DNA of 42,571 nucleotides from Albidovulum denitrificans (lineage in GTDB: Bacteria > Pseudomonadota > Alphaproteobacteria > Rhodobacterales > Rhodobacteraceae), in assembly GCF_002973535.1 (NCBI RefSeq), contig NZ_PVEP01000015.1:1-42571 (forward strand). The letters run 5' to 3'. The position numbers and the translations under genes are program-made. Positions 4,846 through 42,571 of the stretch are shown one piece after another. Positions within the stretch are counted from its first letter, which is position 1, and each line of letters begins with the position of its first letter. A model generated the notes under the pieces. It saw only the letters and a program-made list of their open reading frames with translations. It searched no databases and had not been told where the DNA came from.

Positions 4846-5160
4846 TCAGAGACCGCCCTTGCCCTGCCGGTCCCGCCAGCGGTCGTACCCTTCGGGGTCG
4901 GTGCGGCTGTCGGGTTCGCGGTCGGGGGTTTGGGTTTCGGGTCGCGCAGGCCTTGCCTTGGCTTCGCCGCGGCGGTCGGCCTGATCGCGGATCGAGGCGG
5001 TCGGGCGGTCGCAAAGGCAGCGGCCGGTTTCCGGGTTTGCGATGCACTGCCGCGTTGCCGGGTCGATGACCATCACGCAGCGGTCGCCCATGGCGGCGGC
5101 AGGTGTGGCAAAGCCGATGGCCAGAAGCGGCAGGGCCGGGATGATACGATACAGGGTCAT
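4846..5160 (-). CDS. Secreted/periplasmic small protein with signal peptide
   Basis: A 104-residue protein. Residues 1-23 form a signal peptide (RIIPALPLLAIGFATPAAA) with an AxA cleavage site just before MGDRC. The mature part holds four cysteines (RC, QC, RCLC), suggesting disulfides, followed by a long charged Arg/Pro/Glu-rich tail from about residue 60. GGAGAG precedes the ATG at 5160. The exported location and position next to tiny membrane proteins suggest an envelope role such as superinfection exclusion; this is inference. Confidence 0.6.
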   Translation of the reverse strand: MTLYRIIPALPLLAIGFATPAAAMGDRCVMVIDPATRQCIANPETGRCLCDRPTASIRDQADRRGEAKARPARPETQTPDREPDSRTDPEGYDRWRDRQGKGGL

Positions 5161-5204
5161 TGCACTCTCCATGCGGTTGGGTCCCCACCCAAATCGGAAA
5201 ACTG

Positions 5205-5795: not shown

Positions 5796-5825
5796 TATAT
5801 TGCGAATATCGCAACAGAAGGTCAA
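5796..5825 (-). promoter_or_regulatory. Left early promoter (PL-like)
   Basis: On the minus strand, TTGACC (5820-5825 on the plus strand) is followed after 18 nt by AATATA (5796-5801), a good sigma70-type promoter. The spacer contains operator 5800-5814, so a bound repressor would block RNA polymerase. It would drive the genes from 5767 down to the integrase. Confidence 0.6.
5800..5814. promoter_or_regulatory. Repressor operator, left site 1
   Basis: The 15-bp near-palindrome TTGCGAATATCGCAA lies inside the spacer of the left early promoter. It belongs to the same family as the sites at 5834-5848, 6840-6854, 6866-6880 and 6900-6914. Confidence 0.7.
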
Positions 5826-5833
5826 CTATAAAT

Positions 5834-5848
5834 TTGCGATATTCGCAA
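5834..5848. promoter_or_regulatory. Repressor operator, left site 2
   Basis: TTGCGATATTCGCAA is the exact reverse complement of site 1 and lies 34 bp from it (about three helical turns), allowing side-by-side binding of repressor dimers. It is directly next to the stop codon of the secreted protein gene. Confidence 0.7.
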
Positions 5849-6376
5849 TTAGTTTGACGTGCCGATCTGCGCGATGCTCCAGTCGAAGCTTGTGTAGCCG
5901 TTAATTCGTAGGCTTGACGGGTCGATTTCGGCGATGTCGTCTCCGTCTCTTACCGGCCCGGTGCATACTGCGGCTCCTGCAATTGATGCACCGAAGCTGT
6001 TGGCGGCCTCATACCGTATCCCCAGCCTCACGAGCTTATAGTTGCCGGATTCCCAAAGCCTCTTCGACAGGTCCATCGAATGCTTCGCTTCGGAATTGCG
6101 CGACATGAAGGCTTCATCATGCTTCTTCCGTTCTTCAAAGTTCCATCCTTGAGACTCTTCCCAGGTGGCGCTCGATACGGTCGGGCCAATCAATTCTGTG
6201 CGGCGATAGCTTGATGGCGACTTCAATCGCTCGGAGAGGACCTGTTCGCAAGCCTCGGCAAGCTTCTCTTCGGACGATTTGAAAGGCCACCAAGCCAGTG
6301 CTGGCTGACTGCCGGCAACTGTAATTAATACCGAAACAACGGCACATATTGATTTCGAATCACATATTTTCAACAT
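5849..6376 (-). CDS. Secreted hypothetical protein, lysogenic-cargo (moron) candidate
   Basis: A 175-residue protein with an N-terminal signal peptide (SICAVVSVLITVAGSQPALA, cleavage about residue 28) followed by WWPFKSSEEKLAEACEQVLS. The mature part holds an LKSPSSYRR stretch also seen in short exported proteins of mobile elements; I cannot name the family. It is less GC-rich than its neighbours, which suggests separate acquisition. It lies downstream of the repressor in the same direction, so the repressor transcript could read through into it during lysogeny. No Shine-Dalgarno sequence precedes the ATG. A role in changing the lysogen's envelope is inference. Confidence 0.6.
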   Translation of the reverse strand: MLKICDSKSICAVVSVLITVAGSQPALAWWPFKSSEEKLAEACEQVLSERLKSPSSYRRTELIGPTVSSATWEESQGWNFEERKKHDEAFMSRNSEAKHSMDLSKRLWESGNYKLVRLGIRYEAANSFGASIAGAAVCTGPVRDGDDIAEIDPSSLRINGYTSFDWSIAQIGTSN

Positions 6377-10734: not shown

Positions 10735-11865
10735 ATGGCTTACGACAGCGATTATCGCCTGGCCGATGCGAAGGCCAAGCCGATCAAGGATGTTTCCGAC
10801 CTGCTTGGCATATCGGGCCTTAAGCGCGCGGGGCGCGAGTGGACCGGCCCGTGCCCCGGCATCGGCTGCGGCGGTCGGGACCGCTTTTCGCTGAACGCCG
10901 CGAAGAACCTCTTCAACTGCCGGATCTGCGGGGCCAAGGGCGACCAGGTGCATCTGGTGATGTTCGTGCGCGGGGTGGAGTTCAAGGCGGCGCTGGACTG
11001 GCTTTGCGGCCCCAAGGCCGAGCTGACCCCGGCAGAACGCGCGGAGATGGATCGCCGCGCCGAGGAAAACCGCGCAAGGCAGGCGCGTGACGCGGCGAAA
11101 TACCGCGCCGACGCGATCGCCGCCGCGCGCGAGATATGGCTGGCATCGGTCCCGGCCGAGGACACGCCCGTGCGCGATTACCTCGCCCTGCGGGGCATTC
11201 CGCGCGAGAGGTATCCGGCGCTGCCGAACTGCCTGCGGTTTCATCCCGCCTGCCGATACATGGTCAAGGGCCAGACGGGCTGGCGCGAGGTCCATTGCGG
11301 CCCGGCGATGATTGCGTCCATCCAGGCGGCCGACGGCAAGGGAACTGCCGTCCATCGGACATGGATCGACCTGTCGCAGCCGAAGGGCAAGGCCCTGATC
11401 ACCGATCCGCTGACCGGCGAGGTCCTGAAATCCAAGAAGACGCTGGGCGCGAAGAAGGGCGGCGCGATCCGCCTTTCCGGCCCCTGGGCGCGGTCTGAGA
11501 CCATGGTCATGGGTGAGGGGATCGAGACGACGCTGTCCGCGCTGGCGGCTGGTGTCCCGGCGGGTGCAGTCTATTGGTGCGGCATCGATCTTGGCAACAT
11601 CTCGGGCGCGCGGATCATGGGGCAAGGCAAGAAATATGCCGGCATCCCCGACATGACCGATGCCGAGGCCTTCGTGCCGCCTGAATGGGTCCGCGACCTG
11701 ATCCTGATCCAGGACGGCGATTCCGAGCCGAAATCGACCCACGCCAAGCTTCTGTCCGGTGCCCGCCGCGCGATGGCCCGCCGCCCCGGCCTGTCGGCGC
11801 GGATCGTGCCGGTGCCGGAGGGCCAAGACCTGAACGACGTGCTGATGGGGGCAAGCGATGCCTGA
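10735..11865 (+). CDS. CHC2 zinc-finger / Toprim DNA primase
   Basis: A 376-residue primase-like protein. Residues 36-75 hold a CHC2-type zinc finger (GPCPGIGCGGRDRF, then NCRICGAKGD). The middle (DTPVRDYLALRGIP and following) is the linker seen in phage primase/Toprim proteins. The C-terminal Toprim domain has MGEGIETTLSAL with the catalytic Glu and ILIQDGDSEP with the DxD pair. It makes RNA primers for phage replication. With the separate P4/D5-type helicase protein downstream it forms a two-gene version of the P4-alpha module. It overlaps the next gene by 8 bp. Confidence 0.9.
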   Translation: MAYDSDYRLADAKAKPIKDVSDLLGISGLKRAGREWTGPCPGIGCGGRDRFSLNAAKNLFNCRICGAKGDQVHLVMFVRGVEFKAALDWLCGPKAELTPAERAEMDRRAEENRARQARDAAKYRADAIAAAREIWLASVPAEDTPVRDYLALRGIPRERYPALPNCLRFHPACRYMVKGQTGWREVHCGPAMIASIQAADGKGTAVHRTWIDLSQPKGKALITDPLTGEVLKSKKTLGAKKGGAIRLSGPWARSETMVMGEGIETTLSALAAGVPAGAVYWCGIDLGNISGARIMGQGKKYAGIPDMTDAEAFVPPEWVRDLILIQDGDSEPKSTHAKLLSGARRAMARRPGLSARIVPVPEGQDLNDVLMGASDA

Positions 11866-12109
11866 CATCACCCTTCACGGCAACGGCGAGGATTGCCCCG
11901 CCTGCGCGCTGCGCCGCGACGATCTGCGGGCTGCGGGGGCGATGGATCAGGTCGTTCCCTGCAACTTCTGCGGCGGGACAGGCCGCGTGGGCCGCGCCGT
12001 TGCCGAGATCATCCGCGAGGCCTGCGCCTGGGCCGTCGAGAACTACTGGCCCGCCCGTGAAGAGGCGTGGCGCCAAGAAAACGAAGGGGTGGGTCATGTC
12101 AGGCATTGA
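11858..12109 (+). CDS. Small zinc-binding protein (DnaJ-knuckle-like)
   Basis: An 83-residue protein with two CxxC pairs: CPAC at about 13 and CNFCGGTGRVG at about 35, the latter like a zinc knuckle of DnaJ. A helical tail follows (VAEIIREACAWAVENYW). It sits between primase and primase-helicase and overlaps both, so it may assist replication. Function unknown. Confidence 0.65.
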   Translation: MPDITLHGNGEDCPACALRRDDLRAAGAMDQVVPCNFCGGTGRVGRAVAEIIREACAWAVENYWPAREEAWRQENEGVGHVRH

Positions 12110-13937
12110 CCAGGTGAAGGAGCTGATGGGCGCGGCCGAAGAGGTCGACCTGCCGGAAGAAATGCAGGCAGCGGGTGGCGGGTCCACCCCGCCGATCGAC
12201 CCGCCGCATGATGCGCCCGTCGATGACGGTGGCGACGATGATGGGCAGATGCCGCCCGTTGACCCGGACCTGATCTGGCGCGCCGCGCGCTTTCCGCAGA
12301 ACGACATCGGCAACGGTGACCGATTTTCGCTCTATTTCGGCGAGGATGTCCTGTGGGTGCCGCGCGTGGGTTGGTTCGTGTGGAACGGCCGTCTCTGGTC
12401 GCCCGATGACGACAAGATCGAGGTGCGTCGCCGCGCGCAGAAGGTATCCGGCCTGATCGAAAAGGAGGTTCATCATCTCACCCTGCCCGAGTTCCAGATG
12501 GAGCTGATCGCGAAAGAGGCGGCGCTGGAGCGTGAGCGGCACGATCTGGCCCTGAAAACCGATGAGGCCGGGAAGATCGAGGCAGAGGCGCAGGTCAGGA
12601 TCGACGCGATCGACGCCGACCTGCGCCGCATCGCGCCCCTGAAAAAGACGCTGTCCGACCTGCGCCGTGCGCATCGCAACTTCGCCAAGACAACGGGCAA
12701 CACCGGGCGCATCGACGCGATGGTGACAGAGGCAGGTGTGGGCCTGTCGAAGCGTCTGGAGGATCTGGATTCCGGCGCGCTTGATGTGAACACGCAAAGC
12801 TGTGTGCTTCGGTTTTCGGTCACGGGCGCCTCGGACGATGGCATGTCGCGGGTCGCCAAGGTCGACCTGGTCCCGCATGACCGCGCGCAGCTTTTGACGA
12901 AGTCGGTTGCGCCGCCGCATGACCCGGCCGCGACATGCCCCGGCTTCGATGCCTTCCTTGAACGGGTGATGCCCGCGGCCGAGATGCGGCGATTCCTGCA
13001 ACGCTGGTTCGGGCTGTCGATGACCGCGCTGACCGGGGAACAGAAGCTTGTCTTCCTTTACGGGATGGGAGCGAACGGGAAATCTGTTCTGGTCGACCTG
13101 ATGTCGCGCATCCTGGGCGACTATGCCGCGACGGCGAAGATCGAAAGCCTGATCGGCAAGAATCGCCGGTCCGGCGCCGATGCGACGCCAGACATGATCC
13201 CGCTCGTGAATGCCCGTTTCGTGCGCGCATCTGAGCCGGAAGAGGGCGAGCGCCTTCAGGAGGCGAAGATCAAGGAGCTGACCGGCGGCGAGCCGATGCT
13301 GGTGCGCGGTCTGAACGCCGATTTCTTCGAGTTCCTGCCGGTCTTCAAACTGACGATCAGCGGCAACCACAAGCCCGATATTCGCGGCACGGATGATGGC
13401 ATCTGGCGGCGGCTTCTGCTGGTGCCGTTCGACGTTCAGATCCCCAAGGAAGAGCGTGACCCGCTTCTGGTCCAGAAGCTGTTCGAGGAGCGGGCCGGTA
13501 TTCTGAACTGGGCGATCGAGGGGCTACTGGATTACCTCGAAAACGGGCTGCAAGAGCCGGACATGGTGCTGGCGGCAACGCAGGAATATCGCGATGAAAG
13601 CGATCCGGTCGGCACGATGCTGGCCGAATGTGCCGTCGTGACCGGGTCCGAACAGGACTTCATGCCTGCCAAGGACCTGATCGAGGCCTTCCAGTTCTGG
13701 CTGGAGGAAAAGGGCGAGACGCGCTGGGGCAACCGCACCGTGTCGCTGAGGATGAAGGACAAGGCCCAGAAGTGGCGCCATCCGGCCACCGGAAAGGCCT
13801 TCATCCCCGGCAAGAGCGGCGTGACCGGATATCGCGGCATTCGCCTCACAGACACGTTCCAGCGCCGTTTCGATGACAGGCCGCAAGGCGGGCGGGGTGG
13901 ATCGTCGCAGCAAGGGGGCGCGGAATGGGATCTGTAA
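12096..13937 (+). CDS. P4/D5-type primase-helicase (SF3 ATPase)
   Basis: A 613-residue replication helicase. After a disordered acidic N-terminus (about residues 25-55) and a long coiled-coil stretch (about 125-225), the D5/P4-alpha C-terminal SF3 domain shows Walker A YGMGANGKSVL, motif B around NARFVRASEPEEG, and motif C with the sensor Asn in KLTISGNHKPDIRGT. The winged-helix tail follows (AFQFWLEEKGETRWGN). This enzyme unwinds the phage origin and works with the upstream primase. The coiled coil between the N-terminus and the ATPase is unusual and may replace the primase half of P4 alpha. Start ATG 12096 follows AAGGGGTGGG. Confidence 0.9.
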   Translation: MSGIDQVKELMGAAEEVDLPEEMQAAGGGSTPPIDPPHDAPVDDGGDDDGQMPPVDPDLIWRAARFPQNDIGNGDRFSLYFGEDVLWVPRVGWFVWNGRLWSPDDDKIEVRRRAQKVSGLIEKEVHHLTLPEFQMELIAKEAALERERHDLALKTDEAGKIEAEAQVRIDAIDADLRRIAPLKKTLSDLRRAHRNFAKTTGNTGRIDAMVTEAGVGLSKRLEDLDSGALDVNTQSCVLRFSVTGASDDGMSRVAKVDLVPHDRAQLLTKSVAPPHDPAATCPGFDAFLERVMPAAEMRRFLQRWFGLSMTALTGEQKLVFLYGMGANGKSVLVDLMSRILGDYAATAKIESLIGKNRRSGADATPDMIPLVNARFVRASEPEEGERLQEAKIKELTGGEPMLVRGLNADFFEFLPVFKLTISGNHKPDIRGTDDGIWRRLLLVPFDVQIPKEERDPLLVQKLFEERAGILNWAIEGLLDYLENGLQEPDMVLAATQEYRDESDPVGTMLAECAVVTGSEQDFMPAKDLIEAFQFWLEEKGETRWGNRTVSLRMKDKAQKWRHPATGKAFIPGKSGVTGYRGIRLTDTFQRRFDDRPQGGRGGSSQQGGAEWDL

Positions 13938-14260: not shown

Positions 14261-14703
14261 CCTCCCCGCACCCCACCATATCCTTCTTCGAAGACGGAAC
14301 GCGCCGTCAGGCCCGTCACGCCCGCCACCTGAATTTGGGTCCGATGGGCCTGAGATTGCACCTGTTGGGCCGGAGATGTGTGGAAGGGGGTTCGGGGGAA
14401 GGTGTTTTACGTCAATGGCTTAGGCGGCGATTTGGGCCCGACGGGCTTGACGGGCCCGAGATTCCCGCCCGCGCGCGCGAGCGTGTTCATGGAAGGTGCG
14501 GAAGGGGAGGAAGTCGATTTCTGCGCGGGGGTAGAAATCTCAAGCCCGTCAAGCCCGTCGGGCCCAAATTCGCGTCTATGTCTTTGTTTTCGTTATATTC
14601 TTCGAACGATAATCTTTATCAATCTCAAGCCCAACTGAAACAGTTTCAAGCCCATCAAGCCCAACCGAAGAAACCACGAAATCAACATGAGGCAGATCAA
14701 TGA
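14257..14703 (+). CDS. Doubtful ORF across origin-like repeats
   Basis: An open frame of 148 codons with coupled start (ATGA at 14257) and stop (ATGA at 14700). The first 25 codons (MTSPHPTISFFEDGTRRQAR) look like a plausible start of a small gene, but from about 14335 the frame only translates the repeats and the AT-rich patch (ending in Gln/Lys/Pro-rich sequence). A second frame, 14378-14638, reads the same repeats as GPTGLTGP. I think the DNA itself is the functional element. Confidence 0.3.
   Translation: MTSPHPTISFFEDGTRRQARHARHLNLGPMGLRLHLLGRRCVEGGSGEGVLRQWLRRRFGPDGLDGPEIPARARERVHGRCGRGGSRFLRGGRNLKPVKPVGPKFASMSLFSLYSSNDNLYQSQAQLKQFQAHQAQPKKPRNQHEADQ
14335..14662. repeat. Iteron-like TCAAGCCC repeats with AT-rich patch, candidate replication origin
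   Basis: Copies of the octamer TCAAGCCC, or its complement GGGCTTGA with variants, lie at 14346-14353, 14365-14374, 14431-14455 (two units), 14541-14568 (two units), 14625-14632, 14646-14653 and 14655-14662. A perfect 25-bp inverted repeat joins 14431-14455 to 14544-14568 (88-bp spacer). Between the right arm and the last units, 14569-14625 is strikingly AT-rich for this genome. Iterons, a large dyad and an AT-rich stretch directly downstream of primase-helicase genes are what a theta-type phage origin looks like. This is inference from arrangement. Confidence 0.5.
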
Positions 14704-30812: not shown

Positions 30813-32522
30813 ATGACCACGGTCCTCAGCACCACTGGCAGCCCCGGCTATGCCCAGATCACGGATGGCGGGAAGACATGGGACGTGTATACGTTCCTGT
30901 CTTCCGGTTCGATCACCTTCGACGTTGGCGGGATCGCGGAGTATTTCATCGTCGGCGGCGGTGCTGGCGGCGGCGGTCGTAACTTTGCGGCGGGCGGCGG
31001 CGGCGGGGCTGGCGAAGTTCAGACCGGACAGTGGTCACCGTCTGATGGGCAGACCTTCGACGTTACCGTTGGCGCTGGCGGCGCTGGCGGTAACAACACC
31101 GTTGGCTCGAATGGTGGCGACTCCGTTCTCGCGCTGAGCGGCGGTGCGGCAGTAGCGACCGCCCTTGGCGGCGGCTATGGCGACGGCAGTTCGACCGGCG
31201 GCACGACCGGCGGTATTGGCGGCTCCGGCGGTGGTGGCCGCTGGGATACGACCGGCGGTGCGGCCTCCGGCAGCGGCAACGCTGGTGGCGACGGGAACAA
31301 TTCCGGCACGACGCTGAACAGGTCCGGCGGCGGCGGCGGCGGTCAGGGCGGTGCCGGTCAGACTGCCGCGGCGGCGGCCGGTGGTGCTGGCGGCGCCGGT
31401 ACTTCGACCACCTTCCGAACCGGGGCATCTGAGGATTATGCGGGCGGCGGCGGCGGCGGATCGCGATCGACCGGCGGCGCGGCGACGCATGGCGGGGGTG
31501 CTGGTGGCTCGAACGGTGCCGGTGTGGCCGGGACCGCGAACACTGGCGGTGGCGGTGGCGGATCTGGCAACAATACTTCTGGTGGCGCCGGTGGCAGCGG
31601 CATTGTCGTGGTGCGGGTCGAGGTTACGACCGGGGGCAGCACGGTCACCGGATCTGGCATCTCCTCTGCCACCGCATCGGTGTCAGGCGTTGGCAAATCC
31701 ATGGCGGCCGCAAGCGGGTCGTCCGATGGTGCGGCGACGGCCAGCGCCGTTCCGGCATCCGGCACGACTTGGTTCGGTGATCCCGCCTTCTGGATTGATG
31801 AAAGCACGACCTGGACCTCTGGTGCCGTCGCTATCGGCAGCGGCGCGGCTTCTGGCGCTGCCTCTGCCGATGGTGTCGGTGCGGCCGATGTTGCAGCCTC
31901 CGGCAGCTCGGACGGCGCGGGGTCCGCTATCGGGGCCGGTACATCGTTTGCGACCAGCTCCGGGTCGGTCTCCGGTGCCGGGGCGGCAGATGGCGGTGGG
32001 GCGTCCATCGCGAGCGCAAGCGGGTCGGCGGCCGGTGCGGGCGCTGCCGCAGCGTCCGCGCCCGGATTGGGAAGTGGCTCTGGCATATCGGCGGGTTCCT
32101 CATCCGCAACGGGCGGGGGCGGATCGATCGTTGCGACGGCCGGAAGCGCTGCTGGAAATTCAACGCCGTCTGGCACCGGAAAGTCTGAGGCGGCTGCGTC
32201 GGGCGCCTCTGGGTCTTCGTCATCAGCTGTAGCCGTCGGCCGGTCGGTCATTACGGCAGTCGGGGCATCGTCCGGCGCCGCGAATGTTTCAGGGTCGGCT
32301 TCCGGCGCCGGAACCTCATCCGGTAACGCCTATGGCGCGGTCACGGTTCAGGGCGTCGGGAAATCAGTCGCCATCTCGTCTGGCGCGGCAAGCGGCATTT
32401 CGACGGCATCTGGCAAGGTGCCGCAGACCATCACATTCATAATCCTCGCGTCCCGCAACCGCCCCGGCGCTCGGGCGATTGGCGGGCGCGGATCAGCAAG
32501 AGCAATCGGAGGCGGCCGGTGA
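30813..32522 (+). CDS. Glycine-rich tail fibre / adhesin
   Basis: A 569-residue protein in three parts. Residues 1-50 are a beta start (TDGGKTWDVYTFLSSGS). Residues about 45-270 are extremely Gly-rich (VGGGAGGGGRNFAAGGGGGA), as in polyglycine-II adhesin domains of T-even-like phages. From about 280 to the end a Gly/Ala/Ser repeat of about 20 residues recurs (VGKSMAAASGSSDGAAT, VAASGSSDGAGSA). A short basic tail ends the protein. It probably binds the host surface. Low-complexity repeats of this kind vary by recombination, so the host range may be adjustable. Confidence 0.8.
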   Translation: MTTVLSTTGSPGYAQITDGGKTWDVYTFLSSGSITFDVGGIAEYFIVGGGAGGGGRNFAAGGGGGAGEVQTGQWSPSDGQTFDVTVGAGGAGGNNTVGSNGGDSVLALSGGAAVATALGGGYGDGSSTGGTTGGIGGSGGGGRWDTTGGAASGSGNAGGDGNNSGTTLNRSGGGGGGQGGAGQTAAAAAGGAGGAGTSTTFRTGASEDYAGGGGGGSRSTGGAATHGGGAGGSNGAGVAGTANTGGGGGGSGNNTSGGAGGSGIVVVRVEVTTGGSTVTGSGISSATASVSGVGKSMAAASGSSDGAATASAVPASGTTWFGDPAFWIDESTTWTSGAVAIGSGAASGAASADGVGAADVAASGSSDGAGSAIGAGTSFATSSGSVSGAGAADGGGASIASASGSAAGAGAAAASAPGLGSGSGISAGSSSATGGGGSIVATAGSAAGNSTPSGTGKSEAAASGASGSSSSAVAVGRSVITAVGASSGAANVSGSASGAGTSSGNAYGAVTVQGVGKSVAISSGAASGISTASGKVPQTITFIILASRNRPGARAIGGRGSARAIGGGR

Positions 32523-34997: not shown

Positions 34998-35008
34998 GAG
35001 ATCATCAC

Positions 35009-36430
35009 ATGACCCTCGACAAGATCGATCCGCGCTATGAGTACGCGCCCGACGTGGCCCCGTCCGACGGGCTTCGGTCTACCATCTATGACAAGACCCA
35101 CGGCATCCTCTTCCTGACCTCGGTCGCGCAGATCGAGAGGGTCAAGGAAGGCGACTATCTGGTCACGATGCGCGCCAAGAGCATTGGCGACCTCGATGCA
35201 GATGCCCCCGTGCCGGAACCTGTAGATCCGCCGGTGGAGCCGACGCCGGTTGACCCGCCGCCCGATCCCGATCCGGTCCCGACGCCGCCGGTGATCGGCT
35301 CGACCGTTGCGATCAACGAAACCGACCTGCGCGACAAGGTGGCGAAGCTGGGCAGCGGCCCTGCGACCATCGGCGTCAAGAACGGGCATTTCGGGGCGAT
35401 CACGCTGTCCGGCGTCAACCTGGGCGGCCAGCTGACCATCGTGGCCGAGAACCGTCGCGAGGCGAAGTTCGAGAGCATCTTGCTGAAGGGCGGATCGAAG
35501 GACGTGCAGCTCTTCGGTCTCGGCACCTGCCCGAAAGGCAATGCCACGGGCGGCGGCACCGGGCCGGAGTTGCAAAACAAGGTCTACGGCATCACGGCTG
35601 ATGCCTCGACCTCCAAGATCATCGTCATGGATGCCTTCTGCCAGGGTCACCTGGACAGCGCGAACCATGCCTGGTGGACCGAGGCCGAATGGCGTTCTCG
35701 GGCGCAAGGCGGTGTCATGATCCAGGGAGCGGACAGCGCGATCATCGACAGCTACGCGGAGGGCGTCCGGTTCGGCTTCAACATGATGGGCGATCGCGGC
35801 GTCATGGATAGCCTGCGCGTCTTCGGCGCATCGGGTGACTGCTTCCGGGCGACCGCCCACGACCTCGTCTGCCGCAACCTGCTGGGCTCCGACCTCGTCT
35901 ACATGAACGACGGCAACCACCCTGACGGCCTGCAATCCTTCCTGCTGGACAGCAACAGGAAGGTCGTCGTCATGCGCAACCTGACCCTCAAGAACATCGC
36001 GCTCTTTGACTGGACGGTGCGCCACGACAACCCGATGCGCTTCGCCAGCGAGAACACCAATCCCGCGATGCGGCGCTGGGGCCGGATGCAGGGCCTCGGC
36101 CTGCACCAGGCCGGGTTCTCGAACATGTCGATCGAGGATGTCTACATCAAGACGCCGGTTCCGAATGGCCTCCACATCGGCGGCGTCAACGGCCTCTACG
36201 GCCGCCGCTGGACCGTGCTGAACAGCGACTATGGCCTGAGCGACATCGACAGCTACGACACCCGCTGGCCGAAGATCAATGTGAACGCCACGGGCATCGT
36301 GGACGTCGCCGACACCGAGGCGGAGGACTACGCGGGCAGCCTTGCCGGTCAGATCGTCAATGCCAAGGGCTGTGACTATACGGCGCCCGAACCGGCATGG
36401 GTTGCGCCGCTGCGCCAGCTGGCCGCCTGA
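35009..36430 (+). CDS. Beta-helix tail spike
   Basis: A 473-residue protein. An N-terminal domain of about 65 residues is followed by a Pro-rich linker (PVDPPVEPTPVDPPPDPDP), then a right-handed parallel beta-helix from about 100: repeated short strands (FGAITLSGVNLGGQLTIVAE, AIIDSYAEGVRFGFNMMGDR, RNLTLKNIALFDWTVRHDNP). Asp/His clusters inside the helix could form a polysaccharide-lyase or hydrolase active site. Acting with the SGNH protein it probably degrades surface polysaccharide. GGAG lies 8 nt before the ATG at 35009. Confidence 0.75.
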   Translation: MTLDKIDPRYEYAPDVAPSDGLRSTIYDKTHGILFLTSVAQIERVKEGDYLVTMRAKSIGDLDADAPVPEPVDPPVEPTPVDPPPDPDPVPTPPVIGSTVAINETDLRDKVAKLGSGPATIGVKNGHFGAITLSGVNLGGQLTIVAENRREAKFESILLKGGSKDVQLFGLGTCPKGNATGGGTGPELQNKVYGITADASTSKIIVMDAFCQGHLDSANHAWWTEAEWRSRAQGGVMIQGADSAIIDSYAEGVRFGFNMMGDRGVMDSLRVFGASGDCFRATAHDLVCRNLLGSDLVYMNDGNHPDGLQSFLLDSNRKVVVMRNLTLKNIALFDWTVRHDNPMRFASENTNPAMRRWGRMQGLGLHQAGFSNMSIEDVYIKTPVPNGLHIGGVNGLYGRRWTVLNSDYGLSDIDSYDTRWPKINVNATGIVDVADTEAEDYAGSLAGQIVNAKGCDYTAPEPAWVAPLRQLAA

Positions 36431-36451
36431 ACTGAAAACGAGGGGCAGAGG

Positions 36452-36478
36452 AAGGCCGGGCCGCGCGCCCGGCCTTTT
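36452..36478 (+). terminator. Strong intrinsic terminator of the structural operon
   Basis: AAGGCCGGGC (36452-36461) pairs perfectly with GCCCGGCCTT (36467-36476) around CGCGC, followed by TTTT. It stands 21 bp after the beta-helix spike stop and before the lysis genes. Confidence 0.85.
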
Positions 36479-36503
36479 GCATACTGGGAATGAGGGGATG
36501 GCC

Positions 36504-36812
36504 ATGACGGCGTTGGAATGGCTGCGCGACCACTGGAAGGGCGCGGGAACGATATTGGGCGCGGCCCTCTACATCTGGGTGAACCATAAGGACTTGCCCT
36601 TCTGGCCGCGCACGGCGAAGGTCGCCAGTTCGGCGCTGATCGGTCTCGTCGTTGCCCCCGAGATCGTCGAGAAGTGGGGGACCAGCCCATACCTGACACT
36701 CGCCTCGGTCATGGTACTGGCGTGGGTCGTGATCGATGGCGCAACCACGATCCTGCGCAATCCGAAAGAGGTCCTGGCCGAAATCCTGCGCCGCTATGGA
36801 GGTGGGAAATGA
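36504..36812 (+). CDS. Putative holin-like membrane protein
   Basis: A 102-residue protein with three hydrophobic segments (about 12-28, 42-56, 65-87) and a basic C-terminus (LAEILRRYGGGK). Position directly before the endolysin group and topology suggest a class I holin or a holin-like membrane protein. GAGGGG is 6 nt before the ATG at 36504; the ATG at 36498 lies inside the binding sequence. The stop overlaps the next start (ATGA). Confidence 0.6.
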   Translation: MTALEWLRDHWKGAGTILGAALYIWVNHKDLPFWPRTAKVASSALIGLVVAPEIVEKWGTSPYLTLASVMVLAWVVIDGATTILRNPKEVLAEILRRYGGGK

Positions 36813-37282
36813 ACGACTTTCGCCGCCGCACCCTGCGGCTTCGCATGCTGATCCCAATCATTCTGGCGCTGCTGTACCTCGGGCCGAGTATGGTCATGCC
36901 CTATGTCTGGATCGACCTGCGGGCGGTGACCGTCACTGACGCGACCGATGCGATGCGCGCCCGTGTCCATGCCGATCGGGTGACGCACATCGGATTTCCG
37001 GGCCGGTTCATCGTCAGTTTCCGTGAGGCTGACGGGGTGCCGGTCTGCGCGCCCTATGTCTCCCCCGTGATCCAGTACAAGGGCGGCCTGTCCGCACCGA
37101 TCGACAAGCCGCTCTGGTGGTGGGCCGGTGGGCTGCGCACCCTGCGCGACTGCATCGAGGAGGGCCTGGCTGACGGCGTGTTCTACGCCCTGACCTGCCA
37201 TCAGGCGATGATGTGGTGGACGGTTCCCATCGCGCAGCGCTGCGTCCGGTCGAATGAGTTCAGGCTGGGGGCCGCACGATGA
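36809..37282 (+). CDS. Membrane-anchored hypothetical protein of the lysis region
   Basis: A 157-residue protein with one N-terminal transmembrane helix after a basic head (RRRTLRLRMLIPIILALLYL) and a mostly soluble periplasmic domain with four cysteines. This is signal-anchor topology. It resembles Rz-like spanins only in topology, without the usual coiled coil. GGAGGTGGGAA precedes the ATG; the stop overlaps the endolysin start. Confidence 0.55.
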   Translation: MNDFRRRTLRLRMLIPIILALLYLGPSMVMPYVWIDLRAVTVTDATDAMRARVHADRVTHIGFPGRFIVSFREADGVPVCAPYVSPVIQYKGGLSAPIDKPLWWWAGGLRTLRDCIEEGLADGVFYALTCHQAMMWWTVPIAQRCVRSNEFRLGAAR

Positions 37283-38064
37283 ATCGCGCCGCCTTCTACG
37301 CGGCCCTCCGCCGCCGCGACAGCGGCGTGTTCGGGACCAGCCTTACCCAGGGCCAGGTTCGGGGCATGGACGCCATCCTGGACGAAGCAGAGGCGCGGGA
37401 GACGTCGCTGCGGCACCTCGCATACATCCTCGCCACGCCCTACCTTGAAACCGGCGGACGGATGCAGCCGGTGCGCGAGAGCCTGAACTATTCGGTCGAT
37501 GCGCTGCTGACCAAATTCGGCCGCCACCGGATCAGCGAGGCCGATGCGCGGCGCTATGGCCGATCCGGCAGCCGCGCGGCCAATCAACAGATGATCGCCA
37601 ACCTGATCTATGGCGGGGAGTGGGGCCGAGCGAACCTCGGCAATACCACCTATGGCGATGGCTGGCGCTATCGCGGCGGCGGGCTGGCGCAGATCACGGG
37701 TCGGGCGAATTTCACAACGTTCGGCATGGCGGCCGATCCGGCCCAATCCGGCGACCTGATCCCGGCTGTCCGCATGATGTTCGACGGCATGGAGCGCGGC
37801 CTGTTCACCGGCAAGCGCCTGTCCGATTTCACCGACTATCGCCCGATGCGGCAGATCATCAACAGGATGGACCGCGCCGACGACGTGGCGGGTTATGCCG
37901 AGGCGTTCGAGGCGGCGCTGCGGGCGGCGGGTTACGCCGCCAAGGTCGCGCCGCCCACGCCGTCGCCTCTGCCGTCCTCGCCTACTGGTGGCGGCCTCGC
38001 ATGGGTCATCGGCCTGATCGTCGATGCCTTGAAGTTCGTTTTCGCAAGCATGAAAGGACGCTGA
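37279..38064 (+). CDS. Endolysin, GH19 chitinase-like, with C-terminal membrane anchor
   Basis: A 261-residue lysozyme. The GH19-like domain includes LAYILATPYLETGGRMQPVRES with a catalytic Glu at about 57, ANQQMIANLIYGGEWGRANL, and WRYRGGGLAQITGRANF, the typical Tyr-Arg-Gly-Arg-Gly-like substrate groove. A Pro/Ser linker (PPTPSPLPSSPTGGG) leads to a C-terminal hydrophobic anchor (LAWVIGLIVDALKFVF). A C-terminal membrane anchor on an endolysin is unusual; it may hold the enzyme inactive in the membrane until the holin triggers. Confidence 0.85.
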   Translation: MNRAAFYAALRRRDSGVFGTSLTQGQVRGMDAILDEAEARETSLRHLAYILATPYLETGGRMQPVRESLNYSVDALLTKFGRHRISEADARRYGRSGSRAANQQMIANLIYGGEWGRANLGNTTYGDGWRYRGGGLAQITGRANFTTFGMAADPAQSGDLIPAVRMMFDGMERGLFTGKRLSDFTDYRPMRQIINRMDRADDVAGYAEAFEAALRAAGYAAKVAPPTPSPLPSSPTGGGLAWVIGLIVDALKFVFASMKGR

Positions 38065-38065
38065 C

Positions 38066-38635
38066 ATGAACCGGATGACGGTCAAGCGTGAGATTGATGC
38101 CGTGCAGTGGCGCGGCCCCGACCATGAGATGCCGGAAGGGTTTTTCGAATGCTTGCCAGAGGTGCATTGGGCGGCTGGTAGGAACTTTGTCTATTTCACC
38201 TATGGCAAACTCGACAGCCGCGATTGGATCGGCGTTGAGAAGCTGCCAGAGGAACCAGGCAAGGCGGCACTCGAAGGGTGGGTCGGGTACACGCCGAAGG
38301 GTGAAGCGCCCTACTGGCGCAAGGTTCTGCCGTTCAATTTCTGGTCGGTGAAGTCAGAGGCATCGATGAAAGCGCGCTCTGGTGATGCCGCTTCCCATCA
38401 CGCCGTCTTTCTGGACCTCGACAATCCCGAAGAGGTGCAGCTTTTCCATGACTATTGCGCCTATGAGCGGTGGCCGAACCCGCTGCCCCGCTTTGCCGAG
38501 TTCCGGGTCATCGATGGCAGCTATGGCAGGGGCTATCGCCCGTACTACCTGTCGCCGGGCGACTGGCTTCTTCGCGAGCCGGGAAAAGACCCGACAGTCA
38601 TCAGCGATGACGACCTTCAGAAGATGATTGCATAG
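38066..38635 (+). CDS. Hypothetical soluble protein in the lysis region
   Basis: A 189-residue protein: REIDAVQWRGPDHEMPEGFF near the start, a WRKVLPFNFWSVKSEASM middle, and GDWLLREPGKDPTVISDDDL at the end, a motif frequent in small phage proteins of unknown role. It is soluble and neutral to acidic. The lysis context and separate origin suggest a late-expressed accessory (moron-like) gene. Not recognised further. Confidence 0.6.
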   Translation: MNRMTVKREIDAVQWRGPDHEMPEGFFECLPEVHWAAGRNFVYFTYGKLDSRDWIGVEKLPEEPGKAALEGWVGYTPKGEAPYWRKVLPFNFWSVKSEASMKARSGDAASHHAVFLDLDNPEEVQLFHDYCAYERWPNPLPRFAEFRVIDGSYGRGYRPYYLSPGDWLLREPGKDPTVISDDDLQKMIA

Positions 38636-38645
38636 GAGTTCTGAC

Positions 38646-38900
38646 ATGCCCCCCATCTTTTTCGCGTGGACCCGGTCCTTCTGGGCCACCGTTGTTGGAT
38701 TCGCGATCCTGTTCTTCGGCGCCCCGGCCGAGGTGGTGCAGGGCGCGGCGCAGCTCCTCGCTTGGGCGCTGCCGTGGTCGGCCGATGAGATCGGCGCGGC
38801 GCTGCTGCGGATCGCGCCCATGGTCCTCTGGGCCTTCGCGATGCAGCAGCGGAGCGGCGCCGCCCGACCGTATACGACCGACCCGAGGGCGCTGCGATGA
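38646..38900 (+). CDS. Small two-to-three-span membrane protein
   Basis: An 84-residue hydrophobic protein (WATVVGFAILFFGAPAEVVQ, LRIAPMVLWAFAMQQR). GGAG precedes the ATG at 38646. It starts a chain of four tiny genes coupled by overlaps. A holin or antiholin is possible. Confidence 0.55.
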   Translation: MPPIFFAWTRSFWATVVGFAILFFGAPAEVVQGAAQLLAWALPWSADEIGAALLRIAPMVLWAFAMQQRSGAARPYTTDPRALR

Positions 38901-38974
38901 GCTGGCCCATGGTGCAGCCGGATTGGCGGCTGTCGCTGATCCTCGATGCCATCGCGCGGCGGCTGGGACGATGA
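38897..38974 (+). CDS. 25-residue small ORF
   Basis: MSWPMVQPDWRLSLILDAIA followed by RRLGR: an amphipathic helix. Start overlaps the previous stop (ATGA) and stop overlaps the next start (ATGA). Support comes from this double coupling only; it could be a leader peptide. Confidence 0.4.
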   Translation: MSWPMVQPDWRLSLILDAIARRLGR

Positions 38975-39081
38975 TCTGCATCCTGATCGGAGCAGGCGCC
39001 GGTGTCGTCGCCGCCTATGGCGCGATCATGGCGCTGGCGTGGTGGTATGGCCGGAAATGGAGGGCACCATGGAAGCGGTGA
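38971..39081 (+). CDS. 36-residue single-span membrane protein
   Basis: One transmembrane helix (MICILIGAGAGVVAAYGAIM) followed by a Trp/Arg/Lys-rich C-terminus (WYGRKWRAPWKR), giving an N-out, C-in topology. Coupled at the start. Resembles pinholin or small regulatory membrane proteins; unproven. Confidence 0.5.
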   Translation: MICILIGAGAGVVAAYGAIMALAWWYGRKWRAPWKR

Positions 39082-39239
39082 TCGCAGGGACGTTCGGGGG
39101 CATGGCGATAGGCTTCACGATGGGGCTGATGGGCGCCATGGGATCGCGAGACGGCATCTGGCCGGGTGTATGGGCCGGGCTGATCTTGGCCGGTGGCAGC
39201 ATAGGTGCCGTGATCGGCGCGATATCGGCCCTGTTCTGA
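39069..39239 (+). CDS. 56-residue two-span membrane protein
   Basis: Two Gly-rich hydrophobic helices (IAGTFGGMAIGFTMGLMGAM, GVWAGLILAGGSIGAVIGAI) with a short SRDGIWP loop. It overlaps the previous small gene by 13 bp. Gly-rich packing helices suit a small pore former. Function unknown. Confidence 0.55.
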   Translation: MEAVIAGTFGGMAIGFTMGLMGAMGSRDGIWPGVWAGLILAGGSIGAVIGAISALF

Positions 39240-39253
39240 GGGAGGGTGAAGCG

Positions 39254-39622
39254 ATGGGCTTCCTGAAATGGATCTTCGGCTGGCTGGCCTCCGGCCCGCT
39301 GGACCGCATCCTGTCCACCGTCGACCGCAAGATCGATGCCGAGACGGATCGCGAGGCGCTGAAGGCCGAGATCATCAAGACCTATTACACGACGCGGGCC
39401 GACTTCATGCGTGCCGGGGGCTTCTGGCTGATGCTGATCTTCGCACTGCCGCTGGGCTTCTGGTTCGCGGCCGTCTGCGTCTATTCGGTGTTCTGGTGCG
39501 CTGGCTGCGCCTATCCGCAGGACTGGTCCATCGCCGCCCTTCCCGCGCCGCTGAACGACTGGGCGGGTGGCATCGTCATTTCGATCTTCGGGGTGGTCGG
39601 GGTGTCGCGGATCAGGCGGTAG
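39254..39622 (+). CDS. Holin-like 2-3 TM protein
   Basis: A 122-residue protein: an amphipathic start (GFLKWIFGWLASGPLDRILS), a charged helix (DAETDREALKAEIIKTYYTT), then two or three transmembrane segments (FWLMLIFALPLGFWFAAVCV; GGIVISIFGVVGVS). The layout resembles the 3TM-holin family in alphaproteobacterial phages. GGAGGG precedes the ATG. The stop region overlaps the end of the convergent XRE gene by 11 bp. Confidence 0.6.
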   Translation: MGFLKWIFGWLASGPLDRILSTVDRKIDAETDREALKAEIIKTYYTTRADFMRAGGFWLMLIFALPLGFWFAAVCVYSVFWCAGCAYPQDWSIAALPAPLNDWAGGIVISIFGVVGVSRIRR

Positions 39623-39788
39623 TCTCGGCCGCCAGCCCCCGCAGCGCCAGCGCGTAGAGGCGCAGCTTTGGGCTGCTGCCGTCCTCGATGGCCGTGATTG
39701 TCCTGAGCGATACACCGAGGGCGACCGCCAGCTCGGCCTGCGTGAGGCCGAGTGCTTTGCGGTAGGTGGCAAATTCTGTGGGGGTCAT
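39612..39788 (-). CDS. 58-residue XRE-type regulator
   Basis: Start MTPTEFATYRKALGLTQAEL, then AVALGVSLRTITAIEDGSS: a complete, very short helix-turn-helix of the XRE/Cro type with little else after it. It is the third gene of a minus-strand operon behind the CGCA-N5-TGCG operators and probably regulates that promoter. The start lies 3 nt after the stop of the preceding gene. It ends convergent with the holin-like gene. Confidence 0.7.
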   Translation of the reverse strand: MTPTEFATYRKALGLTQAELAVALGVSLRTITAIEDGSSPKLRLYALALRGLAAETTA

Positions 39789-39791
39789 GGG

Positions 39792-39971
39792 TCAGGCTTT
39801 GATGTACCGAATGGCATCGACGCCGGTGAAGCGGCACCCGTGTTCATCATGCACTCGCGCCGTAAAGTGAACCCCGAGGCGCTTGAGTTTCGTCATCGCT
39901 TTATAGGCCGCGCGCTTGTTGGTGAACGATTGGGAGGTGGCTTCGCGCTCATTGCTGATGATGTAGGTCAT
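39792..39971 (-). CDS. Small hypothetical protein
   Basis: A 59-residue basic protein: MTYIISNEREATSQSFTNKR, then AAYKAMTKLKRLGVHFTARV and a HDEHGCRF end. GGAGAG lies 6 nt before the ATG at 39971. Probably a nucleic-acid-binding or regulatory small protein in the second-switch operon; not recognised. Confidence 0.6.
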   Translation of the reverse strand: MTYIISNEREATSQSFTNKRAAYKAMTKLKRLGVHFTARVHDEHGCRFTGVDAIRYIKA

Positions 39972-39989
39972 GTCTCTCTCCATCAATTT

Positions 39990-40196
39990 TCAGTAGCCAG
40001 CATAGGCGCGGTCTTCCCACATGACAGGCTGATCGCCCAGCCCTTGCCCGCTGACCCACTTGGCATAGCAGCCGGGGTTTTCATCTTCGAAGGTCGCAAA
40101 GGCAGCATCTGCCTCAGAAACCTTGTTTTCAGGAACGCGAAAGTAGATCACGGTGTTTGCGAAGCCGCGCGAAACTTTCAGGAACTTGTCTGCCAT
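39990..40196 (-). CDS. Small hypothetical protein, first gene of second-switch operon
   Basis: A 68-residue protein starting MADKFLKVSRGFANTVIYFR, acidic and beta-alpha in pattern. GGAGAG lies 6 nt before the ATG at 40196. An alternative in-frame ATG at 40235 lies exactly 7 nt behind the -10 box and would give a leaderless 81-residue form, beginning MSNGDSPKDRRD. A GGGG/CCCC hairpin (40215-40226) lies between the two starts. Confidence 0.6.
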   Translation of the reverse strand: MADKFLKVSRGFANTVIYFRVPENKVSEADAAFATFEDENPGCYAKWVSGQGLGDQPVMWEDRAYAGY

Positions 40197-40241
40197 CTTG
40201 TCTCTCCGATCCTTGGGGCTATCCCCGTTGCTCATGTAGTA

Positions 40242-40270
40242 TATATACGCAACGGTTGCGCATTCGTCAA
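40242..40270 (-). promoter_or_regulatory. Promoter of the second-switch operon
   Basis: On the minus strand TTGACG (40265-40270), a 17-nt spacer and TATATA (40242-40247) make a near-consensus sigma70 promoter. Operator 40248-40260 fills its spacer, the same design as the two main early promoters. Confidence 0.7.
40248..40260. promoter_or_regulatory. Second-type operator, site 1
   Basis: CGCAACGGTTGCG is a perfect 13-bp palindrome (CGCA-N5-TGCG core) between -35 and -10. It differs from the TTGCGA-type sites of the main immunity region. Confidence 0.6.
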
Positions 40271-40279
40271 GATCAAATG

Positions 40280-40292
40280 CGCAATTAGTGCG
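40280..40292. promoter_or_regulatory. Second-type operator, site 2
   Basis: CGCAATTAGTGCG has the same CGCA-N5-TGCG arms, 32 bp centre to centre from site 1 (three helical turns), upstream of the -35 box. Confidence 0.55.
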
Positions 40293-40348
40293 TATTATTT
40301 TGGTGTGATCGGCATCGGCGCAGGGCTATCGCGGCTGGGGCGGTGATC

Positions 40349-40467
40349 GGGTTAGCTGGATGGGTCTGGTGGATCGCCGACATCTCTAGCTTTGCCGGGG
40401 CGTCCCCCGGTAGGGAGCCGGACTTGACCGGCGACCCGCCAGACCCATCCTAGTGGGGTTAGCTGGA
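40349..40467. repeat. 12-bp direct repeat flanking the folded element
   Basis: GGGTTAGCTGGA occurs at 40349-40360 and 40456-40467, framing the inverted-repeat element. The right copy contains the stop codon of the adjacent minus-strand gene (its reverse complement includes TCCAGCTAA). A duplicated target or gene-end sequence on both sides is what an insertion event leaves. Confidence 0.6.
40358..40450 (-). ncRNA. Strongly folded 93-nt element, candidate structured RNA
   Basis: The 22-nt ends (40358-40379 and 40429-40450) are almost perfectly complementary: 20 Watson-Crick pairs, one wobble and one mismatch. Inside, read on the minus strand, a GCCGG/CCGGC hairpin with loop TCAAGT and a CCGGGG/CCCCGG hairpin with loop GACG can form, giving a three-way-junction shape. 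The element starts 11 nt after the stop of the minus-strand gene ending at 40459, so it would be the 3' end of that transcript or be processed from it. There is no T-run, no tRNA T-loop and no ribozyme core I recognise. It may be a terminator-like or decoy RNA, an att-like structure or a small mobile element. Confidence 0.45.
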
Positions 40468-40740
40468 CTGTGTTGCGTAGCGGGCGTGCCGCTCCGCGCG
40501 TTCGCGATCCCGGCGAGCTCGGGCTTCGAGCAGCCGGTCGATATGGCGTTGGGCGTAGGCGACGGCCTCGCCCCGATCGGGGAAGGTGACGCCGCGCACC
40601 GGGTGGTAGGTTTCGCCGCCGTTGGTGAGCGCCTGCCAGTGCTCGGTGTGACCACGTTTCCCGACAACCTCGGTTCGCCCGCTGTCGTGAATGATCAGCG
40701 GCTTGAATTCTCCGAGGCTTTTCCGTGCGCTGGCTTTCAT
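40459..40740 (-). CDS. Hypothetical protein
   Basis: A 93-residue basic protein: MKASARKSLGEFKPLIIHDS, HWQALTNGGETYHPVRGVTF, then a long helix (RHIDRLLEARARRDRERAER). GGAGG lies 5 nt before the ATG at 40740. It is the last gene of the right accessory operon, followed by the folded element. DNA or RNA contact through the Arg-rich helix is likely but unproven. Confidence 0.6.
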   Translation of the reverse strand: MKASARKSLGEFKPLIIHDSGRTEVVGKRGHTEHWQALTNGGETYHPVRGVTFPDRGEAVAYAQRHIDRLLEARARRDRERAERHARYATQSS

Positions 40741-40759
40741 GGGCCCCTCCTGCGGGCGT

Positions 40760-41089
40760 TTACTGGACTGGTTTCGGTTGGCCCGGCGCGGGGCGATCCG
40801 GCCAGACCTCGTGGAAGGTTGCGGGGTCGGTTGCGTAGACCATCTCGCGGTCTTCGCTATCCATGTCGCAGACGTTGAGCAGGCAGTCCTCTTCGCCGCG
40901 AATATCGCGGGCCCAGAGGATTTCCCCGGCCCGCTGGCAGGCGAGGTGCGTTTTCCACGTCCATGCATCGCCGCCGTCGACGCAGCGCGCCCGGCGATAG
41001 ATGGTGCCGGACGCGATCTCGCGCAGGCAGCTGTTGCAGCGATGTGGCTTTCGGGCTGTCGGCGTTTCCGAGCTGATGACGGTGACCAT
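40760..41089 (-). CDS. Zinc-binding hypothetical phage protein
   Basis: A 109-residue protein. Residues about 15-50 contain HRCNSCLREIASGTIYRRAR then C-x-DGGDAWTWKTHLAC, a Cys/His zinc-binding arrangement; the C-terminal half is acidic (EEDCLLNVCDMDSEDREMVY). GGAGG precedes the ATG at 41089. Similar proteins are frequent in phage accessory operons; role unknown. Confidence 0.65.
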   Translation of the reverse strand: MVTVISSETPTARKPHRCNSCLREIASGTIYRRARCVDGGDAWTWKTHLACQRAGEILWARDIRGEEDCLLNVCDMDSEDREMVYATDPATFHEVWPDRPAPGQPKPVQ

Positions 41090-41105
41090 GGTGCCTCCGG
41101 GGTTT

Positions 41106-41690
41106 TCAGGATTGCCCCGCCCGCGCGGCCAGACCGGCATCGCGAGCGGCATTCAGTTCAACGGTCGCGCCGCCAGCTTCGCGGCAGGCGTACTTGTATG
41201 CCTCGCGAATCGCCTTCTCCGTCGCATCGTCCTGCACGCCAAGAACCATCCACCAGGATCGCAATGGCGCATCCGACATTGCGCCGGGCGGGGGCAGGGC
41301 GGTGAAGCCCTCGAATGCCTGGTCAAGCACCTGACCGGCGCCCCAGCGATCCATGTCGCGCAGCGCCTTGATCGACAGGCCGATAGCCATAATATTCTCG
41401 AACGGCAGGCTGTAGGTATCGCAAGACAGGCAGACCAGCCGCTTCTTCCGTGTGAAATAGACAGCAACGCCCGGATCATCGAGAGGATCGTCAAGCGCGT
41501 CTGCGTAGGGAGTCCCATCCTTCCGCAGCGGCGCATTCGTGCTGACGACAGGGTTTCCGGCGCCGAAGCGTACCAGCTCATCCATCAGCTCATCGAAGGC
41601 CCTGCGCGGCGTCACCTTGAACGATGACGAACCCCGCGCCTTGGTGCGCGGCCTGCCGTGCGGCCATTGCAGGGGGTATGCTTGCGTCAT
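41106..41690 (-). CDS. J-domain-like protein lacking the HPD motif
   Basis: A 194-residue protein. The first 130 residues are unique (FKVTPRRAFDELMDELVRFG, VAVYFTRKKRLVCLSCDTYS). The C-terminal 55 residues (WWMVLGVQDDATEKAIREAY, then KYACREAGGATVELNAARDA) have the helix pattern of a DnaJ J-domain, but the loop that should carry His-Pro-Asp reads CREAGGA. Without HPD it cannot stimulate DnaK ATPase in the normal way and might block host chaperones, or serve only as a fold. GGAG lies 5 nt before the ATG. Confidence 0.7.
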   Translation of the reverse strand: MTQAYPLQWPHGRPRTKARGSSSFKVTPRRAFDELMDELVRFGAGNPVVSTNAPLRKDGTPYADALDDPLDDPGVAVYFTRKKRLVCLSCDTYSLPFENIMAIGLSIKALRDMDRWGAGQVLDQAFEGFTALPPPGAMSDAPLRSWWMVLGVQDDATEKAIREAYKYACREAGGATVELNAARDAGLAARAGQS

Positions 41691-41707
41691 GCTGACTCCA
41701 CGCCATA

Positions 41708-41767
41708 TGGACTAGGTTTCTGGACTTTACGCCTCGCCCATTGCCTTGTCCAGTTTAATAGTCCAGA
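41708..41767. promoter_or_regulatory. Promoter region with four TGGACT-type sites
   Basis: TGGACT or its complement occurs at 41708-41713, 41721-41726, 41749-41754 (GTCCAG) and 41760-41765, arranged as an inverted array; TCTGGACT (41719-41726) and AGTCCAGA (41760-41767) are exact reverse complements. On the minus strand TGGACA (41747-41752), 17 nt and TAAAGT (41724-41729) form a promoter for the operon 41690-40459, so two sites cover -35 and -10. The plus-strand resolvase may be controlled from the same array. Confidence 0.55.
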
Positions 41768-41803
41768 TTGCTTGCGACATTCTGGCTGAGAGTGCGTAAG
41801 AAA

Positions 41804-42445
41804 GTGGCGTCTGAATCCAGCAACCTGCCTGTTCGCAAGATCGGCTATGCCCGAGTTTCGACGCATGACCAGAACCCCGACATGCAGATCGACGCGCTGC
41901 GAAAGTACGGCGTTCCAGAAGATCTGATCTTCGTCGATCGGGCCTCCGGCGGCAGCTTGTCGCGGCCGAACTTCCTGCGCGCGCTGAAGTATGCCCAACA
42001 TGAGGGGGCCGAGTTCGTCGTATGGAAGCTCGACCGTCTCGGCCGGACGCTGGGCGGTGTCCTAGACACCCTGAAAATCCTCTCCGACCGCAATGTCGCG
42101 TTCATCAGCCTGACCGAGCGCGTGGACACGACAGGCCCTATGGGCAAGGCGATGATCCATCTGCTGGCGGTGTTCGCCGAGCTGGAGCGTGACCTGATCC
42201 GCGAGCGGACGATCGCCGGAATCAACCGGGCGCGAGAGCGGGGGGAGCAGGGCGGCCGCCCGCGCGCCATGACCGAAGACCGGATCGCCAAGGCGGTCGA
42301 GCTGATCGCCGTGGGCGAACGCGGAAACACGGTCTGGAAGGCGATGCAGGCGATGCCGGGGCCGAAGATCAGCCGCGCGGCCTACTACGCCTGGCAGCAG
42401 GAATGGGATGCGGAGAACCGATCGCCCGACCAGGTAGGCGAGTGA
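41804..42445 (+). CDS. Serine recombinase (resolvase/invertase family)
   Basis: A recombinase of about 213 residues. KIGYARVSTHDQN at the N-terminus carries the catalytic Ser (about residue 19). Conserved blocks VVWKLDRLGRTLGGVLDTL, ITERVDTTGPMGKAM-like (seen as LTERVDTTGPMGKAM) and LAVFAELERDLIRERTIAGI follow, then GGRPRAM and a C-terminal DNA-binding HTH-like end (KISRAAYYAWQQEWD). It cuts via a Ser-DNA link at short sites. Resolution of phage/plasmid multimers, DNA inversion or integration are possible. The start is uncertain: GTG 41804, GTG 41792 and TTG 41768 are open and none has a strong Shine-Dalgarno sequence. Confidence 0.85.
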   Translation: MASESSNLPVRKIGYARVSTHDQNPDMQIDALRKYGVPEDLIFVDRASGGSLSRPNFLRALKYAQHEGAEFVVWKLDRLGRTLGGVLDTLKILSDRNVAFISLTERVDTTGPMGKAMIHLLAVFAELERDLIRERTIAGINRARERGEQGGRPRAMTEDRIAKAVELIAVGERGNTVWKAMQAMPGPKISRAAYYAWQQEWDAENRSPDQVGE

Positions 42446-42460
42446 GTCTGAAAAGGAGCA

Positions 42461-42522
42461 GTTTACAGCGCTCCGAAAAAACCGTTGCAAATCAACGCAC
42501 CACACCTCCCCCGGTTTACCGG
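42461..42522. repeat. Right-end GTTTACAG repeats
   Basis: GTTTACAG (42461-42468) and the perfect palindrome CCGGTTTACCGG (42511-42522) lie between the resolvase stop and the terminal repeat. They echo the two GGTTTACAG copies at the left end and may be integrase arm sites or resolvase sites. Confidence 0.4.
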
Positions 42523-42532
42523 ATAGCGCATT

Positions 42533-42571
42533 GAATCTTTGCGGTTCTTTCACTCCTGCCGGGGCCGCCAT
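42533..42571. repeat. 39-bp terminal direct repeat, right copy
   Basis: Exact copy of bases 1-39. In an integrated phage this is the opposite att core; in a circular genome it is the same site read twice. On the minus strand the copy starts with ATG and reads MAAPAGVKEPQRF, so the chromosomal target could be the 5' end of a host gene. Confidence 0.85.

Follow-up and report, generated by a model that had tools for sequence, protein, structure and literature searches.

What is the long hairpin that lies between two gene clusters of a putative prophage, and what brought it there? The window, the whole stretch of 42,571 bases analysed here, is one complete contig (C15) of the host assembly. Its two ends have 39 bp in common (1–39 and 42533–42571), and a 35-bp pattern taken from this terminal repeat has one further copy in the host genome, at the beginning of contig C7, where it stands behind sequence identical to the right end of the window. 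Because the repeat closes both ends and recurs at this host junction, we read the window as a prophage whose att core is the 39-bp repeat at the contig ends, adjoining the tyrosine integrase gene at 70–1149 (Pfam PF00589). The hairpin lies far to the right, at 40358–40450; the coordinates of its parts and neighbors are collected in Table 1.

Table 1. Features at and around the hairpin, in window coordinates.
Feature	Position	Strand	Basis
Small HTH regulator gene	39612–39788		Family search
Next gene past the hairpin (listed as 81 aa), preceded by an A+T-rich gap that holds a palindrome	39990–40235	-	ORF
Direct repeat, left copy GGGTTAGCTGGA; its final 3 nt also open the stem	40349–40360	+	Exact match
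Hairpin, left arm	40358–40379	+	Inverted repeat
Hairpin, inner part: irregular stem with one apical GC stem-loop	40380–40428	.	Predicted fold
Hairpin, right arm	40429–40450	-	Inverted repeat
Direct repeat, right copy; spans the last two codons and the stop codon (40459–40461) of the minus-strand gene	40456–40467	+	Exact match
Gene of 93 aa, with its stop, upstream of the hairpin; resembles DUF6894 weakly, under the cut-off	40459–40740	-	ORF, family search
Serine recombinase gene (Pfam Resolvase), 1.3 kb from the hairpin	41768–42445		Family search

The hairpin and its fold

The hairpin described by the first-pass annotation is real. Its arms, of 22 nt each and separated by 49 nt, are 91% complementary, differing at 2 of 22 positions, and the 93 nt fold with a minimum free energy of -66.3 kcal/mol on the plus strand and -66.2 kcal/mol on the minus strand (z-scores of -8.31 and -7.53; none of 200 shuffles per strand folded as well). 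When we scanned the whole window for inverted repeats with arms of 22, 20 or more Watson-Crick pairs and no more than 80 nt between the arms, only two places emerged, this hairpin and 14438–14561, and none of 40 dinucleotide shuffles of the window contained an inverted repeat by the same criteria. Energy alone sets the locus little apart: across 93-nt windows slid through the whole window in steps of 5, the lowest value was -60.5, at start 40356, versus -60.1 at 31321. The two internal GC hairpins that had been proposed do not appear in the predicted plus-strand fold, which is a single uninterrupted hairpin with bulges, topped by one GC stem at roughly 40393–40412. Self-complementarity over the 93 nt is 71%, with the outer stem pairing better than the inside.

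The flanking direct repeat

Exact 12-bp copies do flank the hairpin, as had been noted, and GGGTTAGCTGGA has no further exact copy in the window, but the framing is not symmetrical: the left copy shares 3 nt (GGA) with the stem, while the right one stops 5 nt short of it. At 19,754 random window places we compared 60-nt flanks at equal spacing and found shared words of at least 12 nt at 55 (0.28%), so that the repeat is unlikely to be there by chance. Other 12-bp repeats within 130 nt occur at several points across the window, many of them in low-complexity stretches; a 12-bp repeat by itself is thus unremarkable, and what is remarkable is its position at the hairpin. Of the two copies, the right one is coding sequence of the neighboring gene and for that reason probably the original, the left one having arisen by duplication.

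Transcription and RNA

The hairpin is placed between two gene clusters of the prophage, and only 8 nt separate it from the stop codon of the 93-aa gene, the last of its minus-strand series. This location, its high stability on both strands and the A+T-rich gap that follows, with its imperfect palindrome, suggest the main rival to the reading that we prefer below: a functional 3'-end stem that would end or stabilize the minus-strand transcript of genes 41690–40459 and insulate the next promoter (at about 40236–40300), the direct repeat being incidental. The palindrome in question, two 20-nt imperfect inverted arms ATACGCAACGGTTGCGCATT / AATGCGCAATTAGTGCGTAT at 40245–40295, precedes the gene at 40235–39990 and is a possible operator for the small HTH regulator. 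Like an intrinsic terminator or a 3'-UTR stem, the hairpin is GC-rich and sits right behind a stop codon; unlike them, it has no T-run on either side, is unusually long and is framed by a duplication, which a 3'-end stem leaves unexplained. Ordinary intrinsic terminators are shorter than 93 nt, and a terminator scan that requires a T-run reported the hairpin on neither strand. We regard a functional 3'-end stem as doubtful, though it deserves to be weighed.

Could the stem instead belong to a small structured phage RNA, transcribed from either strand? The stable fold on both strands, with its low z-scores, is what such an RNA would offer. Against it, the strands fold about equally well, as palindromic DNA would, and the only match to a sigma-70-type promoter in 38500–42571, at 41752–41724 on the minus strand, is at chance level (1 found, 0.9 expected). 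A tRNA/tmRNA scan was empty. Rfam, where the first-pass annotation had proposed to look, holds no family that matches the hairpin, either at the gathering threshold or at E 10, and with no homologue found in phages, plasmids, family and order genome samples or viral contigs there is nothing in which compensatory change or covariation could be judged. The suggestion of a new structured RNA has accordingly lost ground, and we consider it improbable.

A site for recombination, packaging or replication

An inverted repeat framed by direct repeats, with a serine recombinase gene nearby, might also be a DNA site that extrudes as a cruciform for recombination, packaging or replication. Recombination had been raised before, but the att core at the window ends lies about 2.1 kb from the hairpin, and the ends of the hairpin are not those of an attC-type site. 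Such sites are defined by inverted RYYYAAC / GTTRRRY ends; by eye, the hairpin carries GTTAGCT on both sides, in direct rather than inverted orientation, and this word is not GTTRRRY. Replication, for its part, has a candidate in this phage type elsewhere, in the origin-like hairpin at 14430–14570 described below. A role as a DNA site is in our estimate very unlikely. Near the hairpin, 40319–40340 matches 22 bp of the host exactly (C5:145186–145207, apparently coding there); this is perhaps a chance coincidence, and we dismissed the stretch as an att site, the core being at the window ends.

Relatives of the hairpin sequence

Sequence searches returned short matches only. With 40230–40570 as query, 50,697 phage records gave one short match (E 0.3) and 72,556 plasmid records gave short matches in nine records (E 0.03–0.3). 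The host genome holds no second copy, and overlapping samples of 394 family and 390 order genomes gave only matches of 26–31 nt, in seven genomes besides its own in each sample, four of them common to both. We set all of these aside: six of the family-sample matches, at query 34–63, read like the motif ADIxIFAGA, which we take to be that of LspA; the seventh lies at query 19–45, and the three new ones from the order sample at 35–63, 31–56 and 77–107.

Pattern searches with parts of the hairpin gave a similar picture. Among viral contigs the arm patterns matched in this phage only, and the apical-stem pattern matched in three other contigs, none of which carries a similar hairpin by eye. In genome contigs the arm pattern picked out 29 stretches, several of them strong palindromes and several coding-like by eye. 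The inner parts of 28 were unlike that of the hairpin, with at least 23 of 200 shuffles scoring equally; the exception, L046, is weak (1/200). A framing repeat of at least 8 was present in one of the 29 (of exactly 8), versus 12 at the hairpin. With about 2 such stretches roughly expected under even base composition, and more under GC bias, the 29 may represent an excess of such palindromes. Four contigs of one Chloroflexota MAG (L044, L049, L052 and L053) contain near-perfect palindromes of 74–75 nt with arms GGGTCTGGCGGG, apparently a multi-copy palindromic repeat of that MAG.

With up to three mismatches allowed, a looser 22-mer arm pattern was present in 107 of 295 family genomes (own included), and its reversed control in about 39 of 295 by hand count; we suspect that codon bias accounts for the excess. 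Among the matches listed for the 295 genomes, no two lay close together on one contig except the hairpin's own arms. Nor did these searches find a parent element with the hairpin's ends, and the one host arm match that we inspected is coding sequence. The lack of homologues in these searches argues, weakly, against an old conserved RNA and for a recent arrival.

Related phages and the hairpin's place

A related phage lacking the hairpin would offer an empty site for comparison. We sought relatives with this gene order via the neighboring genes and found none, and because of this there is no empty site to compare. Searches with the 93-aa gene turned up a single distant relative in the viral contigs, which lacks a long hairpin behind it, and a single match, weak and partial, in 394 family genomes. 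For the 194-aa gene the closest relative, at 76%, is contig L016 of genome G394, which stops 273 bp behind that gene, short of showing the hairpin's place. Seven records that share the origin-like element gave no DNA match to 35000–42571, in a search that had no positive control and on records that are possibly fragments, three being just 18–22 kb. We also scanned five related phage records, four whole and one nearly whole, for long inverted repeats, defined by arms of 18 with 16 or more pairs and a gap not exceeding 150. Of the eight found, two form one overlapping pair; four places are origin-like by sequence or position and three lie within long ORFs, and none resembles the hairpin at 40.3 kb.

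A second, origin-like hairpin

The other inverted repeat of the window, at 14430–14570 (within 14333–14664), is larger, with z-scores of -8.3 and -11.5. It stands about 500 bp behind a gene with a D5_N domain (11685–13937), with one small ORF between, and its arms and surroundings are made of GGGCTTGA-like words. From this position and these repeats, it is probably a phage replication origin with iterons. A literature search by the letters of the GGGCTTGA-type motif found no paper.

Counting the window, 15 viral contigs contain the pattern TTGGGCTTGAYGGGCTTGA. Seven of the 14 others (L125, L126, L127, L129, L131, L136 and L137, with L125 cut at its end) have the words and the hairpin in the same order; the remaining seven have the word pair only, four of them as the same stretch, apparently coding by eye. 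Of the related phage records, L138, L141 (8181) and L144 show the origin-like element, and in L126, L138 and L144 it lies beside an ORF of 610–616 aa that we tentatively read as the same helicase. We aligned the origin-like hairpin from the window and from six of the seven contigs with words and hairpin, leaving out L125; two of the seven sequences, L131 and L136, are near-identical. Of 36 pairs in the consensus stem, five are changed on both sides yet kept in at least one sequence and 12 are broken or gapped in at least one. Covariation in this hairpin is slight, and its energy term is correspondingly small (-0.71 kcal/mol).

Two further palindromes were seen. In contig L147 of G394, the gap that follows a 652-aa ORF carries at 5105–5193 a hairpin of other sequence, with arms GTAACGATGTTACGG. 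Its relative position equals that of the window's origin-like hairpin, and it is perhaps a counterpart built on different iterons. The other, a short operator-like palindrome TTGCGAATATCGCAA / TTGCGATATTCGCAA, lies at 5797–5851, toward the left of the prophage.

Discussion

The reading of the hairpin at 40358–40450 that we tentatively prefer, and hold to be possible if somewhat short of probable, is a single, lineage-specific, MITE-like insertion behind the 93-aa gene, about 95 bp long and accompanied by a 12-bp duplication of its target. Its observed basis is a fold-back, an exact framing duplication and the lack of any copy in what was searched. A small stray insertion is more likely than a new RNA family. 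Fold-back DNA of about 95 bp would have entered immediately past this gene's stop codon, and the 12-bp target, which forms the end of the gene and reads TCCAGCTAACCC on the minus strand, would have become duplicated, presumably by a staggered cut or by fill-in on entry of the hairpin. The insert would be specific to this lineage and would itself carry no gene. Transcription would now include it as the 3'-UTR of the preceding gene, which would stay unharmed, and the stem may passively slow the polymerase or protect the 3' end.

MITEs and bacterial fold-back elements are short and non-coding, with terminal inverted repeats and a flanking direct repeat, and lie between genes. The hairpin resembles them in being short, non-coding and intergenic, with 22-nt terminal inverted repeats and a flanking direct repeat, while matching none in sequence. 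It differs in being single-copy in what was searched, with no parent transposase found, in a repeat that is not flush with its ends (it reaches 3 nt into the left arm and stays 5 nt clear of the right one) and in the length of its duplication, 12 bp being long. From REP-type palindromes, which like the hairpin are extragenic and GC-rich, it differs in not being repeated in the host genome, where many copies would be expected. The earlier idea of a tiny mobile hairpin that duplicated its target thus survives in part: the anatomy fits it best, but a second copy, a source element and an empty site were not found. Against the insertion stand this lack of a second copy and of a parent element and the asymmetrical way in which the arms end at the repeat, unlike a textbook transposon end.

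The single occurrence in what was searched and the asymmetrical framing would suit a different origin, in which template switching or slippage during replication made the quasi-palindrome and the short duplication and no mobile element was involved. A fresh inverted duplication would be uniformly identical, whereas here the arms differ at two positions and the inside pairs worse, and we give this origin little credence. The better pairing of the outer stem could alternatively mean selection for a stem. Insertion and 3'-end stem are compatible, in that a hairpin behind a stop codon acts as a 3' stem whether or not it has been selected to do so.

A stronger form of the insertion reading would make the hairpin a mobile fold-back element in its own right, about 95 bp long, that duplicates 12 bp of target when it inserts behind phage genes, is moved by some enzyme and is represented so far by one copy; we see only a slim chance of this. 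A small fold-back insertion between phage operons is little surprise by itself. The origin-like hairpin, which recurs in other viral contigs, may deserve separate attention. If more copies of the hairpin at 40358–40450 exist with other 12-bp duplications, it would be a minimal mobile hairpin.
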